DNA of 64,000 bases from Paracoccaceae bacterium. GTDB taxonomy: Bacteria > Pseudomonadota > Alphaproteobacteria > Rhodobacterales > Rhodobacteraceae. Shown piece by piece: positions 1-7,187 of the stretch. Positions within the stretch are counted from its first letter, which is position 1; each line of letters begins with the position of its first letter. A model generated the notes under the pieces. It was not told the origin of the DNA, made no database searches, and worked only from the letters and a program-made list of their open reading frames with translations. A program made the position numbers and the translations under genes. The stretch covers positions 1 to 64,000 of the forward strand of contig CACDPP010000001.1 in NCBI GenBank assembly GCA_902554705.1. Reading direction: 5' to 3'.

Positions 1-517
1 CGACACTTCGTTTCTTATCATCTCCAGCGCTATAAGTTAAATTGTTTCCACCAACTGCTGGTGCGCCAGTAGCATCAAAGCTGTACGAACCATTTTCACC
101 AGCTCCCCAAGTGTCTTTTACTTGTATAGTACTTTCGACACTTCGTTTCTTAATATCTCCAGGAGCATAAGTTAAATTGTTTCCACCAACTGCTGGTGCG
201 CCATTAGCGTCAAAGTTGTATTGACCACTTTCACCATCTCCCCAGGTCAAGTTTCCTGTTGTACTACCTACGACTTGTCGTTTCTTATCATCTCCCGCGC
301 TATAAGTTAAATTGTTTCCACCAACTGCTGGTGCGCCAGTAGCATCAAAGCTGTACGAACCATTTTCACCAGCTCCCCAAGTGTCTTTTACTTGTATCAC
401 ATTAACAACCTGGCGCTTTTTTAGATCTCCAGGAGCATAAGTTAAGTTGTTGCCACCAACGGCTGGCGCGCCATTAGCGTCAAAGTTGTATTGACCACTT
501 TCACCAGGCCCCCACGT
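1..517 (-). repeat. 135-bp coding tandem repeat array (45 residues per unit)
   Basis: Three full units (517-383, 382-248, 247-113) and a fourth cut by the window edge (112-1) lie in frame inside the flagellin-like gene. Each begins TWG and carries the conserved core GAPAVGGNNLTY followed by a GD-x-KKR turn. Two subtypes alternate: one with ESGQYNFDANG, the other with ENGSYSFDATG. Bases 11-126 and 281-396 differ at a single position, so the effective duplication unit is 270 bp. Confidence 0.93.
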
Positions 518-1831
518 TTGATTTCCAAATGTATTTGTTGTTCTGGCCTGAGTTACCGTATGCTTATGATTATTTGCAACATTGGTTATGGTGATTTCAT
601 CGCCCGCAATATTACCGTTGAAATTAATTCCGGTTCTTGCAGGAATTACCAAAATCTCATTTGCTTTGAAATTCTGCCCACCATCAATGATTTCCATATT
701 GGTTATCGTCTCGACACCACTTACGGTAGCAGTCTGAATGTGGGCTCTTACCGTTCCTGTACCCGCTGTGCCAGCCTGGCCAGCTTTATAAGATAACTCC
801 ACATTTTTATAAGTCCTATTAGCATCGGCTATGGCACCCATGGTAATGGCGTTTCCATTTTTATCCTGTAATGCAGAAATAAAACCGTTTCTCGTTCTCT
901 CCATATTAACGGTTTTCAAAATTTCTGTAAAACTTAAAACTTCATCCATAGAAGAACTAAAGTCACCATTGGCCATAGTTGACGTACGTGAAATTGTTGC
1001 ATCTGAGTAGAAATTTATTTTTAAAAGACCCTGAGAACCGTTTTTAGTTGCATCAATCTCTCCAATTGCGACTTTGGTAGTTCCTTGACTGGCATGGTCA
1101 AACGTATAATTGACTACATTACCATCAATTGTAATGCCTGCTGCATCTTGTAGTGTTAGTATATCTGGCCTTCCCAAATTGCTTGATACACCAAATTCAA
1201 TTGAATCTGCTGCAAAAACAGTTTCAAAATTTACAGAGTTTCCTAATATTGCATCAGAGGGCAGCTTAACGAGGTTCACCAACTGACCACCGTTTGGCAA
1301 TCCTTCCCCTACTTTGCGCAAAGCATCAAAAAGTTCAGAATACTCAATTTTTCCAAGACCAAAAGTCATTTCAGCATTACGAGCTCCAATTGAAAGGTAT
1401 TCACTTCCAGCAGTGTCAACAAAAATGTCTTTACCCTTGTAAGTAGCCCCTTGCATCACACGATTAAACTCTTGAGCAATAGCTTCCGCTTCAGCGTTGA
1501 TCATTTCCAGCTCTTCAAATGTATTAGTACCATTCGCACCTAAAACAGCTAGGTCTTGTAACCTAGCAAGAAGATTTGAAGCAGACCCAATAGCCTTCAT
1601 ACCAGTTTCAAGATAACCCAACACGACAGATGCGCCTTTGATACCTGCTTTGGTACTGGCATGGTCTAATCGAAATGCGTCTATCATCGCTGCGTTGGAA
1701 GCTCTATCACCAGCGTTGGCACTCTGCTTACCCGAAGCAATACGCTCCCGGCTATTGTTCGCTTCATAGTTCGTGCGTGTCAAAGATGTCTCCACCTTAT
1801 AAAACGCTGTGGTAGGACCGATGTTTGCCAT
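1..1831 (-). CDS. Flagellin-like protein with internal tandem repeats (partial, runs off the left edge)
   Basis: The reading frame starts at ATG 1831 after a good AAGGAG site and stays open to base 1, so 610 residues are visible and the C-terminus is outside. The N-terminal ~150 residues are a flagellin D0/D1 domain: ERIASGKQSANAGDRASNAA matches the family's SGLRINSAKDDAAG region, and LLARLQDLAVLGANGTNT matches its LQRIRELAVQAANGTNS helix. A variable domain follows, and from residue 439 a 45-residue repeat begins. A normal flagellin would need a C-terminal D1/D0 helix beyond the repeats. The product would be a secreted filament subunit with an enlarged outer domain. The N-terminal call is firm. 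Whether it is a true filament subunit or a flagellin-like adhesin cannot be decided without the C-terminus. Confidence 0.85.
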   Translation of the reverse strand, partial: MANIGPTTAFYKVETSLTRTNYEANNSRERIASGKQSANAGDRASNAAMIDAFRLDHASTKAGIKGASVVLGYLETGMKAIGSASNLLARLQDLAVLGANGTNTFEELEMINAEAEAIAQEFNRVMQGATYKGKDIFVDTAGSEYLSIGARNAEMTFGLGKIEYSELFDALRKVGEGLPNGGQLVNLVKLPSDAILGNSVNFETVFAADSIEFGVSSNLGRPDILTLQDAAGITIDGNVVNYTFDHASQGTTKVAIGEIDATKNGSQGLLKINFYSDATISRTSTMANGDFSSSMDEVLSFTEILKTVNMERTRNGFISALQDKNGNAITMGAIADANRTYKNVELSYKAGQAGTAGTGTVRAHIQTATVSGVETITNMEIIDGGQNFKANEILVIPARTGINFNGNIAGDEITITNVANNHKHTVTQARTTNTFGNQTWGPGESGQYNFDANGAPAVGGNNLTYAPGDLKKRQVVNVIQVKDTWGAGENGSYSFDATGAPAVGGNNLTYSAGDDKKRQVVGSTTGNLTWGDGESGQYNFDANGAPAVGGNNLTYAPGDIKKRSVESTIQVKDTWGAGENGSYSFDATGAPAVGGNNLTYSAGDDKKRSV

Positions 1832-2255: not shown

Positions 2256-3797
2256 TTACTCTACCTTCTGACCTTTCCAACTGCCTACCACTGTGTAAGG
2301 TTCTTTACCTTGATTATTACGCTCTACCCAGAGTCTGAATTTGTTATACGTTCGTTCATATCTTTCCGTTGTTTCTACTTTGGGTGGATTGTTCATCAGC
2401 GTGTTATAGTAGCCTTGATCAATATCTTTAAACTGTAAGGTTTCCGTATAGTTGTGGAAGTCTCTTTCATAGTTCAACTTTTTACCTAGAACTGCCTTAC
2501 TGGCTTCACCCATATATTTTTTTAAAGTGAGGATCTGATCATATTGAACAATAAATGAGTCATGGACACTGAGTATTGGCACATCGCTGTAAGTAAACTT
2601 CTTTATTACATACTCTGTTATTAGGCTGTCCTGATACATAAGATTAACAAGCTGAGCAGTAAACAACTCATCAGCCAAGTGTGGATTTAACTCCATGAAA
2701 CTATTAATTAATTTGCTTAACTCTCGATCTTTTAAAGGTAAATCGCTGCTGGCCCTAAAAGCCTCGTATGCTTGCCGCTTTGACGATGCACTTAATGCTG
2801 CTAAAATTAAAAGTTTTAAAGCTTTTGTTTGTTGTTTCTTGTTTAAATCAGGTAAAATCACTTCATCTAATTCATAAACAATAGAAGCCTTTCCTTTATT
2901 TATTGATAGGATCGAGGGATGAATACCTTTGTAGTCTACCTCAATGGTAGGTTTATTATTAATAAAAATGTCTTTCCTATAGCTTTTTCCTAGCTGTTGC
3001 CAAAATCCTCCGTAAAACCAACCGTTATTTGTCCATGAACCTCTGGAGAATATGCGACTTACAAACTTATTATTTTGGTTTATCGGTATGCGCTGAATAC
3101 CTACTTTAGTTTCACGCTCTATGTATGTCTTTTCGAGTGTTGCTATGTCTATGTAAGTTTTCTGAAGTAAGCTATTGTAAGCGTACAGCATCAACTCCAT
3201 TCGCTGGGTTTCGTCTGTGTCTTCATATTCTATAAGCTGCTTTAGTCGCTTGCCCCGCCTCCTTATAAGTTTTCCTTCTATATCAGTATCAAAGTCGGAT
3301 AGTATAACGGCGACTTTGCTTTTGTGTTTATAGATATCAAACTGTTCTGCAGTACATTTAGCAAACTCAACTTTAAGAATATGTGATGGGCGTATTCTGC
3401 TAGTGAAGCTTTTCCATCCAGCATAAGTTTTATCGTTGCTCCCACCCACAAACTCTAAATATCCTAGCTCGACTAAACCATCGATAAGTTGGACAATTTT
3501 AAACGAGACATTGAGACTGTTATACCGTGAGGTAGGAACATATGCATTTGTACTTCTTGGTACTCCTGTCCAAAACGCTGGGTCATCTAGGAATGTTTCA
3601 TAGAGGTGGACTAGTAGCACCTTTATTATAAGCTTTGGTTGTGTACCTTTTCTATTGCCTTTGGGAGTTAAGCTGGCTTGCCTGTGCTGGCCCAATGAAT
3701 GCCATACTTTATCAACAATTATATTAATTTCAGGATGGTCGGACCAAGCATGAATGTCTAGCGGTTTTGAATGTGATTTGTGATCGCCAATTGACAT
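2256..3797 (-). CDS. Uncharacterised protein with polymerase-like palm motifs
   Basis: A 513-residue protein from ATG 3797, preceded by AGGA six bases upstream; a TTG at 3863 would add 22 residues but has no such site. I recognise it as a widespread uncharacterised bacterial family. Its central part has GWFYGGFWQQ (259-268) then DYKGIHPS (288-295), laid out like motif A of family-A DNA polymerases and T7-type RNA polymerases. A helical stretch with TKALK (324-328) could be a motif B analogue. SVHDSFIV (410-417) resembles motif C, with HDS as in phage RNA polymerases. The N-terminal part (about 89-119) could be a winged helix. No signal peptide is seen. It stands alone between two surface-protein genes. 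Function is unknown; nucleotidyl transfer is an inference from the motifs only. Confidence 0.7.
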   Translation of the reverse strand: MSIGDHKSHSKPLDIHAWSDHPEINIIVDKVWHSLGQHRQASLTPKGNRKGTQPKLIIKVLLVHLYETFLDDPAFWTGVPRSTNAYVPTSRYNSLNVSFKIVQLIDGLVELGYLEFVGGSNDKTYAGWKSFTSRIRPSHILKVEFAKCTAEQFDIYKHKSKVAVILSDFDTDIEGKLIRRRGKRLKQLIEYEDTDETQRMELMLYAYNSLLQKTYIDIATLEKTYIERETKVGIQRIPINQNNKFVSRIFSRGSWTNNGWFYGGFWQQLGKSYRKDIFINNKPTIEVDYKGIHPSILSINKGKASIVYELDEVILPDLNKKQQTKALKLLILAALSASSKRQAYEAFRASSDLPLKDRELSKLINSFMELNPHLADELFTAQLVNLMYQDSLITEYVIKKFTYSDVPILSVHDSFIVQYDQILTLKKYMGEASKAVLGKKLNYERDFHNYTETLQFKDIDQGYYNTLMNNPPKVETTERYERTYNKFRLWVERNNQGKEPYTVVGSWKGQKVE

Positions 3798-4102
3798 TAA
3801 AAATCCTGAGTTAGAATGGGCTATTAAAAATCTCTGTGCATAATAATCAAACAATTTACTCAAGAATGAACTTAAATAAATAAAAATTTAAAATTAAAGC
3901 GTTCTTTTACAGTAATTTATGCTGTTCGATAGAGATCATCTTATTACTCAATTTTTCCTCATTTAAAGAAAGTCAAAAATTTGAAACTTGAAGGGCTATC
4001 AATCTTTAGAGCTCTTATTCTTTTGAAATCATTAGCTAATTAAATTTTTGGCATGTGATTTGCTATTTAAAAAGATAATTTAAACGTTAATCGCGAGTTT
4101 GA
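3798..4102. other. Intergenic region between divergent genes
   Basis: This AT-rich stretch lies between the start of the polymerase-like gene and the start of the adhesin gene, so both promoters should be here. I see no clear -35/-10 pair, repeat or small gene. Confidence 0.5.
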
Positions 4103-5944
4103 ATGTTTTTTAAATACAAAGTGCTCTATTGGGTTTGTGGCGCGATATGCGTTGGAACAGCATCGTTTGCGGGCAATTTGTCTTTATATTCTTTCACTGA
4201 AGGTGCAGCTGACCAAGGAATGACCAACATCACAAGTGGTGATGAAAACGTTGCAATTGGCGACGAAGCGTTAAAACTCAATACGAGTGGATCTTATAAT
4301 ACCGCTGTTGGCGATGAGGCTCTCAAAGCTAATACAATTGGTGTTAAAAACACCGCGATTGGGAAAAACTCATTATTTTCAAATATACATGGCCAACAAA
4401 ACGTAGGTATTGGTTTCGAAGCTCTAAAAAGTAATACCACTGGAGGTTACAATACAGCCGTTGGGGTTGAAGCAAACCGTTTGAATACATCAGGACAATT
4501 TAATACGTCAGTTGGTTTTGAAACTCTGGAGACTAATACTTCCGGATCTTACAATACAGCCCTTGGTGCCCGTGCTTTGAGATATAATTCCGGGTCATAT
4601 AACACGGCGGTGGGCATTTTTTCACTTGATGCTAATGGTTCCGGGTCTTATAACACAGCTGTCGGAGCAAACTCATTATCTACCAATACAACGGGATCAA
4701 ATAATACCGCTCATGGTTATAACTCACTAAATAGAAATACTTCTGGGTCTAATAATACCGCAACTGGGCGGAATTCTCTTTATTACAACACAACGGGATC
4801 AAGCAACACCGCCCAGGGTTATAACGCTCTATATAATAATACCTCTGGCTCTTATAATACTGCAACTGGGCAGGATTCTCTACGTTCCAATACAACCGGA
4901 TCAAACAACACCGCACAAGGTTATAACGCTCTTCGTGCTAATACTACAGGCGCTCAAAATACCGCAACAGGTGTCGGATCACTCGCCTCTAACACAACCG
5001 GTTCAAACAACACCGCCCAGGGTTATAACGCTCTTAATGCTAATACTACAGGCGCTCAAAATACGGCAACAGGTTTCGGATCACTCGCCGCTAATACCAG
5101 CGGGTCAAACAACACTGCCCAAGGTTACAACGCTCTCAGTGCGAACACTACCGGTGCTCAGAATACTGCATTTGGCGAGGCGGCAATGACAGCTAATACA
5201 ACAGGCTCGAACAACACTGCCTTTGGTAGAAACGCATTGCAAAACATTACCACTGGGAGTCAAAATACAGCAATTGGTTTAGGAGCTGGATCGACTAATT
5301 CACAAGGAACAGGCAATATTTTTGTAGGATATATGGCTGGATCACAGGAAAATGGGTCAAATAAGCTTTACATAGACAACTCATCAACAACGACACCACT
5401 TATTTATGGAGACTTTGATACAAACAGTGTAACTGTGAATGGCGATTTCGAAGTGACTGGAAATTTTCTTACCGACAAAGTTGTAAGCTCGACAGGACAA
5501 ACCGTTATGCATTATGAGCAAGCCACGGGAGCTGTGCACATTGGGCAAAACTCAATGGTTTTTTATGACTCCGCTGGGGCAATTGGTAATGGAAAAGATA
5601 TTATGGCTTCATCAGTTGGAAAAATACAAATTGGTCGAATGAATTCAGATGTCACAAGTTTTGTGGGAGAAGTAAATGTGCCAGAACCAACCAAGCCAAC
5701 ACATGCTGTTACAAAACAATATGCAGATAGTACAGCCGCAATGAGTATGGCGATGGCTTCAGCAGTTGATGCTAATAGCGAAGGCAATCATATGGGGTTT
5801 GGTTTTGGCGATTATGCTGGTCAAACAGCAATGGCGGTTGGCGTCAGTTTACAATATGAGAAAACAAAACTAAAGATTATAGCATCACAAAGCGAAACTA
5901 TGAAAGAGCCGGCTTTTTCTGGCGGATTTTCTTGGAGTTTTTAA
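4103..5944 (+). CDS. Trimeric autotransporter adhesin (YadA-type anchor, 17-residue repeats)
   Basis: A 613-residue secreted protein. Residues 1-23 form a signal peptide ending SFA. Residues about 49-400 are tandem repeats of the form NTAxGxxALxxNTTGSx, a left-handed beta-roll pattern of adhesin heads and phage fibres. A stalk-like stretch with SVTVNGDFEVTGNF follows near 440. The last ~70 residues fit a YadA membrane anchor: AVTKQYADSTAAMSMAMA, then GFGFGDYAGQTAMAVGVS, ending in the aromatic FSWSF expected of a BAM substrate. The trimer should pass its repeats through its own barrel to the surface. The stop overlaps the next start (TAATG), so the pair is probably co-translated. No strong ribosome binding site precedes the ATG. 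Confidence 0.85.
   Translation: MFFKYKVLYWVCGAICVGTASFAGNLSLYSFTEGAADQGMTNITSGDENVAIGDEALKLNTSGSYNTAVGDEALKANTIGVKNTAIGKNSLFSNIHGQQNVGIGFEALKSNTTGGYNTAVGVEANRLNTSGQFNTSVGFETLETNTSGSYNTALGARALRYNSGSYNTAVGIFSLDANGSGSYNTAVGANSLSTNTTGSNNTAHGYNSLNRNTSGSNNTATGRNSLYYNTTGSSNTAQGYNALYNNTSGSYNTATGQDSLRSNTTGSNNTAQGYNALRANTTGAQNTATGVGSLASNTTGSNNTAQGYNALNANTTGAQNTATGFGSLAANTSGSNNTAQGYNALSANTTGAQNTAFGEAAMTANTTGSNNTAFGRNALQNITTGSQNTAIGLGAGSTNSQGTGNIFVGYMAGSQENGSNKLYIDNSSTTTPLIYGDFDTNSVTVNGDFEVTGNFLTDKVVSSTGQTVMHYEQATGAVHIGQNSMVFYDSAGAIGNGKDIMASSVGKIQIGRMNSDVTSFVGEVNVPEPTKPTHAVTKQYADSTAAMSMAMASAVDANSEGNHMGFGFGDYAGQTAMAVGVSLQYEKTKLKIIASQSETMKEPAFSGGFSWSF
4230..5300 (+). repeat. 51-bp coding tandem repeats of the adhesin head
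   Basis: About twenty in-frame 17-residue units, each with an NTA-x-G step and an NT(T/S)G turn. The best-conserved stretch, about 4800-5160, repeats at 102 bp (two units) with only scattered base differences, which suggests recent amplification. Repeats near the N-terminal end are more diverged. Confidence 0.88.
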
Positions 5945-7110: not shown

Positions 7111-7187
7111 GGACCCATAGCTCAACTGGATAGAGTACTTGACTTCGAATCAAGGGGTTGGGGGTTCGAATCCTCCTGGGTCCGCCA
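7111..7187 (+). tRNA. tRNA-Arg (anticodon TCG)
   Basis: A 77-nt cloverleaf with CCA encoded. The acceptor GGACCCA pairs with TGGGTCC, the anticodon stem CTTGA/TCAAG encloses the loop CTTCGAA (anticodon TCG, reading CGA), and GGGTTCGAATCC forms the T arm. It marks the border between the accessory first 7 kb and the core genes that follow. I found no repeated copy of its 3' end in the window. Confidence 0.97.

Follow-up and report, generated by a model that had tools for sequence, protein, structure and literature searches.

A family-A-like polymerase gene with an eroded active site that appears to be retained in a marine Rhodobacterales genus

The divergent phage family-A polymerase divPolA2 was named in 2024 from 110 genomes of barbaviruses, which are Rheinheimera phages, with AUR84708 as its representative, and the portion of that study drawn on here leaves its function open between DNA repair and an RNA polymerase (PMC11348598). 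TV-Pol, the transposon-virus polymerase family introduced in 2008, is in the excerpts used here a minimal polymerase core without a nuclease; some members carry an additional N-terminal domain, which is also found encoded by a gene of its own (PMC2579912). According to the same excerpts, TV-Pol has members in Rhodobacterales, with lambda-type integrases and IS630-type transposases as neighbours, and its features include a beta-hairpin with an absolutely conserved arginine and fingers with a conserved aspartate and an RxxxK motif (PMC2579912). For the CCPol-MP pair of SCCmec, the sections of the source considered here report that CCPol extends primers and, together with MP, primes de novo (PMC7581432); related polymerase-SSB pairs appear in the corresponding part of a further report (PMC10061031).

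Here, we describe a gene of a marine Rhodobacterales genus that encodes a degenerate, family-A-like polymerase, P0001. The gene lies in a stretch of 64,000 nucleotides (the window) that forms the beginning of contig 1 of a 1.85 Mb genome that is 69% complete. The explanation that we favour, with moderate confidence, is that of a captured, catalytically degenerate mobile-element polymerase that has been kept for a non-catalytic role. The reading frame runs on the minus strand from an ATG at position 3797 down to 2256 and encodes 513 residues without an internal stop, while stops abound on the plus strand across 2256-3797; a TTG at 3863 is a possible start of a longer ORF. The translated protein contains the motifs DYKGIHPS (from residue 288) and VHDSF (from residue 411), which a preliminary description of this DNA had likened to palm motifs A and C of family-A polymerases. 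The likeness is not due to chance, as D288, K328, H412 and D413 are identical in all 24 relatives that were found by similarity to P0001 with the motifs left unused (hereafter the motif-blind relatives).

P0001 gave nothing convincing against Pfam, NCBIfam and PADLOC, and the sole family model that fitted was PHROG phrog_4756 (E 6.7e-42), of unknown function. By tblastn, 25 of 50,697 phage records and three plasmids matched P0001. When a phage member of the family was used as the query, 278 of the 50,697 records matched (E <= 0.01), of which 115 were from Rheinheimera phages, and some phages had two or three matching places per record, as is also described for divPolA2 in the portion of its report used here (PMC11348598). 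Among 292 sampled genomes of the order, 47 matched P0001, its own included, with some of the matches covering short stretches only. Scanned by pattern, 84,980 species genomes yielded 380 stretches, 267 of them confirmed by tblastn, and the best 80 gave 79 loci; the scan patterns include R260 and D288, and degenerate copies elsewhere may have escaped. Viral contigs scanned with P0001 contained no relative, and scanning them with the family alignment identified 12 loci. The protein had been introduced as an orphan, which is incorrect given these relatives in phage records, plasmids, genomes of the order and other bacteria.

The link to divPolA2 is close. An hhalign comparison of the family with AUR84708 gave a probability of 98.5 and an E-value of 2e-15 over 350 columns. 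Among the BFVD viral models searched by Foldseek, phage proteins of the same family rank first, as far as they are named, and the 'DNA polymerase' of Rheinheimera phage Barba31A matched the P0001 model with an E-value of 6.6e-19. Together, the hhalign and BFVD matches mostly refute the proposal of the preliminary description that P0001 represents an undescribed polymerase or nucleotidyltransferase system. In favour of that proposal are the lack of a fitting Pfam, NCBIfam or PADLOC family and a matching PHROG of unknown function. The catalytic set of the window copy is moreover incomplete, the phage branch already bears the name divPolA2 (PMC11348598) and a setting like that of TV-Pol is on record, as far as the excerpts go (PMC2579912), so that we hold such a system to be extremely improbable. 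What is novel is the degeneration and retention of the window copy; the family itself was already known. We found no title on a degenerate yet retained member of this family in the open-access literature, which was mostly judged by title. The record of Ma-LMM01 gave no match, and gp030, which we presume to be the TV-Pol of that phage, reached an hhalign probability of 0.3. As no sequence match that would relate it to a named TV-Pol was obtained, we refrain from classing the window protein as a TV-Pol.

An AlphaFold2 model of P0001 was built from 67 aligned sequences (pLDDT 87.7, pTM 0.88). Structure prediction and a Foldseek search had been proposed as checks in the preliminary description, for which a fold without a palm would have been a refutation; a palm domain was found, and the predicted fold agrees with the palm that family-A DNA polymerases have in common with RNA polymerases of the T7 type. 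Three Foldseek matches in the PDB had an E-value <= 0.001, all of the DNA polymerase I type (best E 6.3e-4, probability 1.00). VIA-align, run on rows taken out of the best 1000 of Foldseek, matched the apicoplast polymerase (Z 10.8, rmsd 4.2, 251 residues aligned), Aquifex Pol I (Z 10.1), Bst Pol I (9.6), T7 DNA polymerase (9.4) and the mitochondrial RNA polymerase of yeast (9.0), and the 50 rows listed were all family-A DNA polymerases or mitochondrial RNA polymerase. In the model, D288 closes the predicted strand E282-288 and D413 is placed in the turn of the hairpin E409-411/E414-418. The replication protein of the Zamilon virophage matched the model with a Foldseek E-value of only 0.016.

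Sequence comparisons reached less far. With hhalign, the family scored a probability of 0.3 against 14 Pol I proteins and of 0.7 against T7 and SP6 RNA polymerase, where the motif-C stretch alone was aligned. A phmmer search of the PDB sequences with P0001 and a profile search returned no polymerase, and single members of the family gave weak matches to RNA polymerase families in PHROG (best E 0.0013, 3 of 17) and Pfam (best E 0.035, 2 of 17). The assignment to the superfamily is thus based on the predicted fold and the order of the motifs, and we consider the family and fold assignment of P0001 nearly certain.

The N-terminal domain (residues 1-165, positions 3303-3797, minus strand) forms a separate globular unit in the model, with predicted elements H54-71, H100-110, E114-117 and E132-137, and residues 1-170 modelled alone reached a pLDDT of 86.6. 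Its Foldseek and VIA matches included many regulators of the MarR and Fur types, others being ribosomal proteins, and were weak (best E 0.049, best Z 6.3); the domain is perhaps winged-helix-like, a tentative reading of the model. No 3'-5' exonuclease family was found for P0001 in Pfam. The P0001 family thereby resembles divPolA2, for which a palm, an N-terminal globular domain and no exonuclease are given in the part of its description used here (PMC11348598).

Nine core residues (R248, R260, R274, D288, D306, R324, K328, H412 and D413) are present in all 24 motif-blind relatives, and the window copy has lost three of them. Codon 260 (TGG, positions 3018-3020, minus strand, as for all codons here) encodes Trp in place of the Arg of G-R-F-Y, codon 306 (ATT, 2880-2882) Ile in place of the Asp of the fingers motif D-P-Y, and codon 324 (ACA, 2826-2828) Thr in place of the Arg of RxxxK in motif B. 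R248 and R274 are kept, as are D288 of palm motif A (GAC, 2934-2936), K328 of RxxxK (AAA, 2814-2816) and His-Asp 412-413 of palm motif C (CAT GAC, 2559-2564). We take R260, R324 and K328 to have known counterparts in Pol I and T7 RNA polymerase. Motif-B residues hold the phosphates of the incoming nucleotide. The suggestion that a lysine-containing helix between the two motifs acts as motif B stood in part: helix H320-336 is at the place of RxxxK, but T324 is found here where all 24 relatives have Arg. The sequence context of T324-x3-K328 is the same as that of R324 in L048, the nearest relative. Both TV-Pol fingers features, the Asp and RxxxK, are thus absent from the window copy (I306, T324) and present in the 24 relatives (PMC2579912, as excerpted). 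If the hairpin arginine of TV-Pol is mapped to R260, the window copy has Trp where the relatives have Arg; the other candidates are R248 and R274.

The losses were also seen by other comparisons. The alignment-free patterns G-R-[FYW] and D-x-Y were present in 24 of 25 rows, the window row being the exception; a search for RxxxK does not discriminate, as the window protein has an unrelated R-x3-K further on. Pairwise BLAST among the motif-blind ORFs, P0001 included, recovered R260 in 31 of 32, D288 in 32 of 32, and H412 and D413 each in 31 of 31, and its gap shifts were too large for judging sites 306-328. Besides an alignment of 17 relatives (A2), we built a larger one (A3) from P0001 and 66 of 67 near-full-length ORFs out of 85 matches. 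The excluded ORF, L087, has a long N-terminal extension; it keeps GRF and HDS, with DPY further on. In the 67 rows of the larger alignment, which is biased at R260 and D288 by the patterns used to choose its loci, 63 have all nine core residues, L081, L112 and L107 miss one each and the window copy misses three. At the 67 conserved sites of this alignment, the window copy deviates 13 times and the other 66 rows at most 10 times (median 2).

We infer that the window copy has probably lost its polymerase activity, so that the active new polymerase envisaged by the preliminary description is unlikely at this locus. Weak residual catalysis would be possible because both catalytic aspartates (D288 and D413), K328 and H412 are retained. 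The same four residues, together with purifying selection over the genus (see below), favour a P0001 whose site is altered but which remains active as a polymerase or primase, the substitutions having changed rate or substrate. Against this stand the conservation of R260, D306 and R324 in every motif-blind relative and the orthologues of a sister lineage (71-72% identity), which have been retained without H412 and D413. Across the genus as a whole, the conserved property is therefore not catalysis, and we judge an active enzyme to be unlikely.

These orthologues were found among 16 genomes of the genus, five of which match: the genome of the window, three with orthologues (97, 72 and 72% identity; 71-72% for L036 and L037) and one with a distant copy (29%, G305). 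The closest orthologue, L035, runs to the end of its contig and has W260, I306 and T324 as in the window copy; this 3-kb contig matches the window along its length, over the polymerase and adhesin genes. L036 and L037 keep R260 and have N306, C308, T324 and Y336. Their motif C reads Asn-Gln in L036 and Ser-Glu in L037, where K328 is also gone. The loss of D306 and the substitution R324T are thus common to all four copies. As L036 and L037 share E390, C308 and Y336 as well as the loss of His-Asp, this loss is most simply older than their split. All four frames are open over 515-543 codons, one reaching the contig end. A quick maximum-likelihood tree groups the four copies in a single clade (SH-aLRT 100) inside the bacterial family, with a stem of 0.72 and with L073 as its neighbour (93).

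The distant copy of G305, another species of the same genus, lies at L038 1381-2685 (minus strand) and has, as judged by eye, a Gln at the expected place of the G-R-F-Y Arg. The family gene of Rhodobacteraceae bacterium HTCC2150 is split in two frames (L049 7923-13361), with a repeat of about 1 kb of the gene lying 4.5 kb downstream.

The window and the two orthologous loci with enough flanking sequence (L039 and L040) have tRNA-Arg, the polymerase gene and the flagellin-like gene in this same order. In the window, the conserved neighbour on the 5' side of the P0001 gene is tRNA-Arg(TCG) (7111-7187, plus strand) and the conserved 3' neighbour is a flagellin-like gene (1-1831, minus strand, truncated by the contig start; Flagellin_N E 1.1e-15). 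The polymerase gene is 157 bp from the tRNA in L039 and L040, and the window has about 3.1 kb more, including a YadA-like adhesin gene (4103-5944, plus strand; YadA_anchor E 4.3e-6) that is absent between the polymerase gene and the tRNA in those two loci. Two further genomes, G293 and G297, gave no match to P0001; as both contigs end near the expected place, we do not count these two genomes as losses of the gene. The flagellin-like gene has 135-nt direct repeats at 1-533, and the adhesin gene contains 51/102-nt repeats. divPolA2 is described from phages, whereas the window copy belongs to a chromosomal contig, is syntenic with two orthologues and lacks three of the nine core residues.

We also considered whether the P0001 gene marks an element integrated at tRNA-Arg. 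We dropped this reading because the gene lies 5' of the tRNA and not at its 3' end, and because the first 20 kb of the window have no inverted repeats of at least 40 nt and no exact copies of the last 17 bases of the tRNAs. By eye, no integrase, resolvase or transposase was recognised among the listed window ORFs, in a contig that begins 2.3 kb from the P0001 gene.

To describe selection on the gene, we used maximum-likelihood estimates of omega. Between the window copy and L036 or L037, omega was 0.118 and 0.121, respectively (LRT against 1: 226.8 and 227.7). L036 against L037, both of which lack motif C, gave 0.315 (LRT 20.8), and since the His-Asp loss most simply predates their split, the protein under this selection would already have been devoid of motif C. 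The selection is weak, as the three neighbouring genes of the same genomes have lower values. These genes, named by eye as DUF1624-like, tgt-like and tig-like, had omegas of 0.121, 0.060 and 0.048 between the window and G299 and of 0.144, 0.044 and 0.037 between G299 and G303. Between the window copy and L035, omega was 0.474, not significantly different from 1 (LRT 3.57). The dS of the polymerase gene, about 1.5, exceeds that of the neighbouring genes (0.38-0.98), which could reflect replacement by recombination.

These values bear on whether P0001 is the remnant of a mobile element that is becoming a pseudogene, with residue losses that are ordinary decay. Eroded catalytic motifs would be expected of such a remnant, as would the lack of significant selection in the window lineage, the weaker selection on L036 and L037 than on neighbouring genes, and the existence of split and partial family copies elsewhere. 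Ordinary decay is at odds with four frames that have all stayed open, with an omega of 0.12 over a dS of about 1.5 and with significant selection on the copies without motif C, and we find it rather improbable. Selection for some function of the gene is likely. The reading of degeneration with retention is based on the four copies.

Amino acid divergence was unevenly spread along the protein. Relative to residues 1-300, residues 301-440 diverged 2.41-fold between L036 and L037, 1.62-fold between the window copy and L036, 1.43-fold between the window copy and L037, and 0.86-fold between the window copy and L035. Sixty control pairs of relatives with 60-95% identity, which are not mutually independent, had a median ratio of 1.04 (range 0.59 to 1.84). 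The L036/L037 ratio lies above all of them, window/L036 is exceeded by one control and window/L037, exceeded by four, is within their range. The part from the fingers to motif C is thus relaxed in the sister lineage and less clearly so in the window lineage. The stricter conservation of residues 1-300 suggests, at the sequence level, a role in binding nucleic acid or a partner.

Intact relatives show the gene in another setting. Contig ends truncate many of the 79 loci, and a tRNA gene occurs in 47 of the 79. The last 17 bases of that tRNA recur as a second, direct copy in 17 of the 79 and as an inverted copy in 11. Inverted repeats of at least 90 nt with at least 85% identity flank or overlap the family gene in 17 of the 79 loci. 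Overall, 17 of the 79 bacterial loci sampled have the look of elements integrated at a tRNA gene. One ORF cluster recurs in 14 of 21 hand-chosen loci (L031 together with 20 from the set of 79, most of which have tRNA-Gln or inverted repeats), and the three members compared with Pfam all match DUF6538 and Phage_integrase; two exceed the Phage_integrase cut-off and the third narrowly misses it. L073 (Rhodobacteraceae bacterium IMCC1909), the nearest relative of the four copies in the tree, has an integrase ORF that passes this cut-off, and its flanks contain, as judged by eye, an IS630-like transposase and another integrase-like ORF. The setting of some P0001 relatives resembles that of TV-Pol, for which lambda-type integrases and IS630-type transposases are likewise given as neighbours (PMC2579912, as excerpted).

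In ten loci, the family gene neighbours tRNA-Gln, and inverted repeats (245-492 nt, 85-100% identical) lie on either side of the gene or overlap it (L050 7242-9722, L055 6272-9736, L056 7757-15077, L060 7237-9790, L063 7717-11183, L068 860-2891, L070 7410-9655, L079 7567-9812, L082 7270-10409 and L120 7333-9775). One arm starts with the last 17-20 bases of the tRNA and the other closes with an inverted copy of them, and an arm often overlaps one end of the family gene. A direct copy of the tRNA end is found further away in six of the ten. Between genomes, the arms mostly have short blocks in common, an exception being L066 and L120 (87% over 345 nt). This arrangement looks like an invertible or gene-converting polymerase module. 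Two Paracoccus versutus plasmids share 99.3% identity as far as the final base of the copy of the tRNA-Gln end (L031 5173-5189, L034 up to 7098), and the alignment stops exactly there, as expected for insertion at that site. Possible element cargo includes an AIPR protein (L070 12978-14216, minus strand) and a DUF2779 protein (L063 9425-11020, minus strand). The name AIPR is linked to abortive infection.

Given this gene context, and the priming and extension shown for CCPol-MP, integrative elements probably use the intact relatives as their polymerases or primase-polymerases. Compared by description, CCPol-MP is like the P0001 family in that its polymerase is a family-A polymerase of a mobile element; unlike our reading of the window copy, it is catalytically active, and it works with a small partner protein (PMC7581432, sections as above).

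In the favoured explanation of a captured and degenerate polymerase, P0001 would descend from a polymerase, or perhaps a primase-polymerase, that a mobile element or phage carried. The gene would have been captured in this marine Rhodobacterales genus between tRNA-Arg and the flagellin-like gene and inherited there since. The Asp of the fingers and the Arg of motif B would have been lost first, most simply before the four known copies split. Later losses would have removed the Arg of G-R-F-Y in the window lineage and the His-Asp pair of motif C in the sister lineage. Today, the protein would not catalyse DNA synthesis and may instead bind nucleic acid or a partner, for example as a regulator or competitor of active elements or phages. 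That P0001 acts as a DNA-binding competitor or regulator is a tentative proposal and by itself doubtful. A dominant-negative defence, in which the protein binds DNA or partners needed by active elements or divPolA2 phages and so blocks their replication, appears distinctly improbable.

A polymerase that was seemingly kept by selection after two kinds of erosion of its site is a natural experiment on what the remaining protein does. The family connects bacterial elements that look integrated at tRNA genes with the phage proteins of divPolA2, a group of open function, and its intact bacterial relatives are available for biochemistry.
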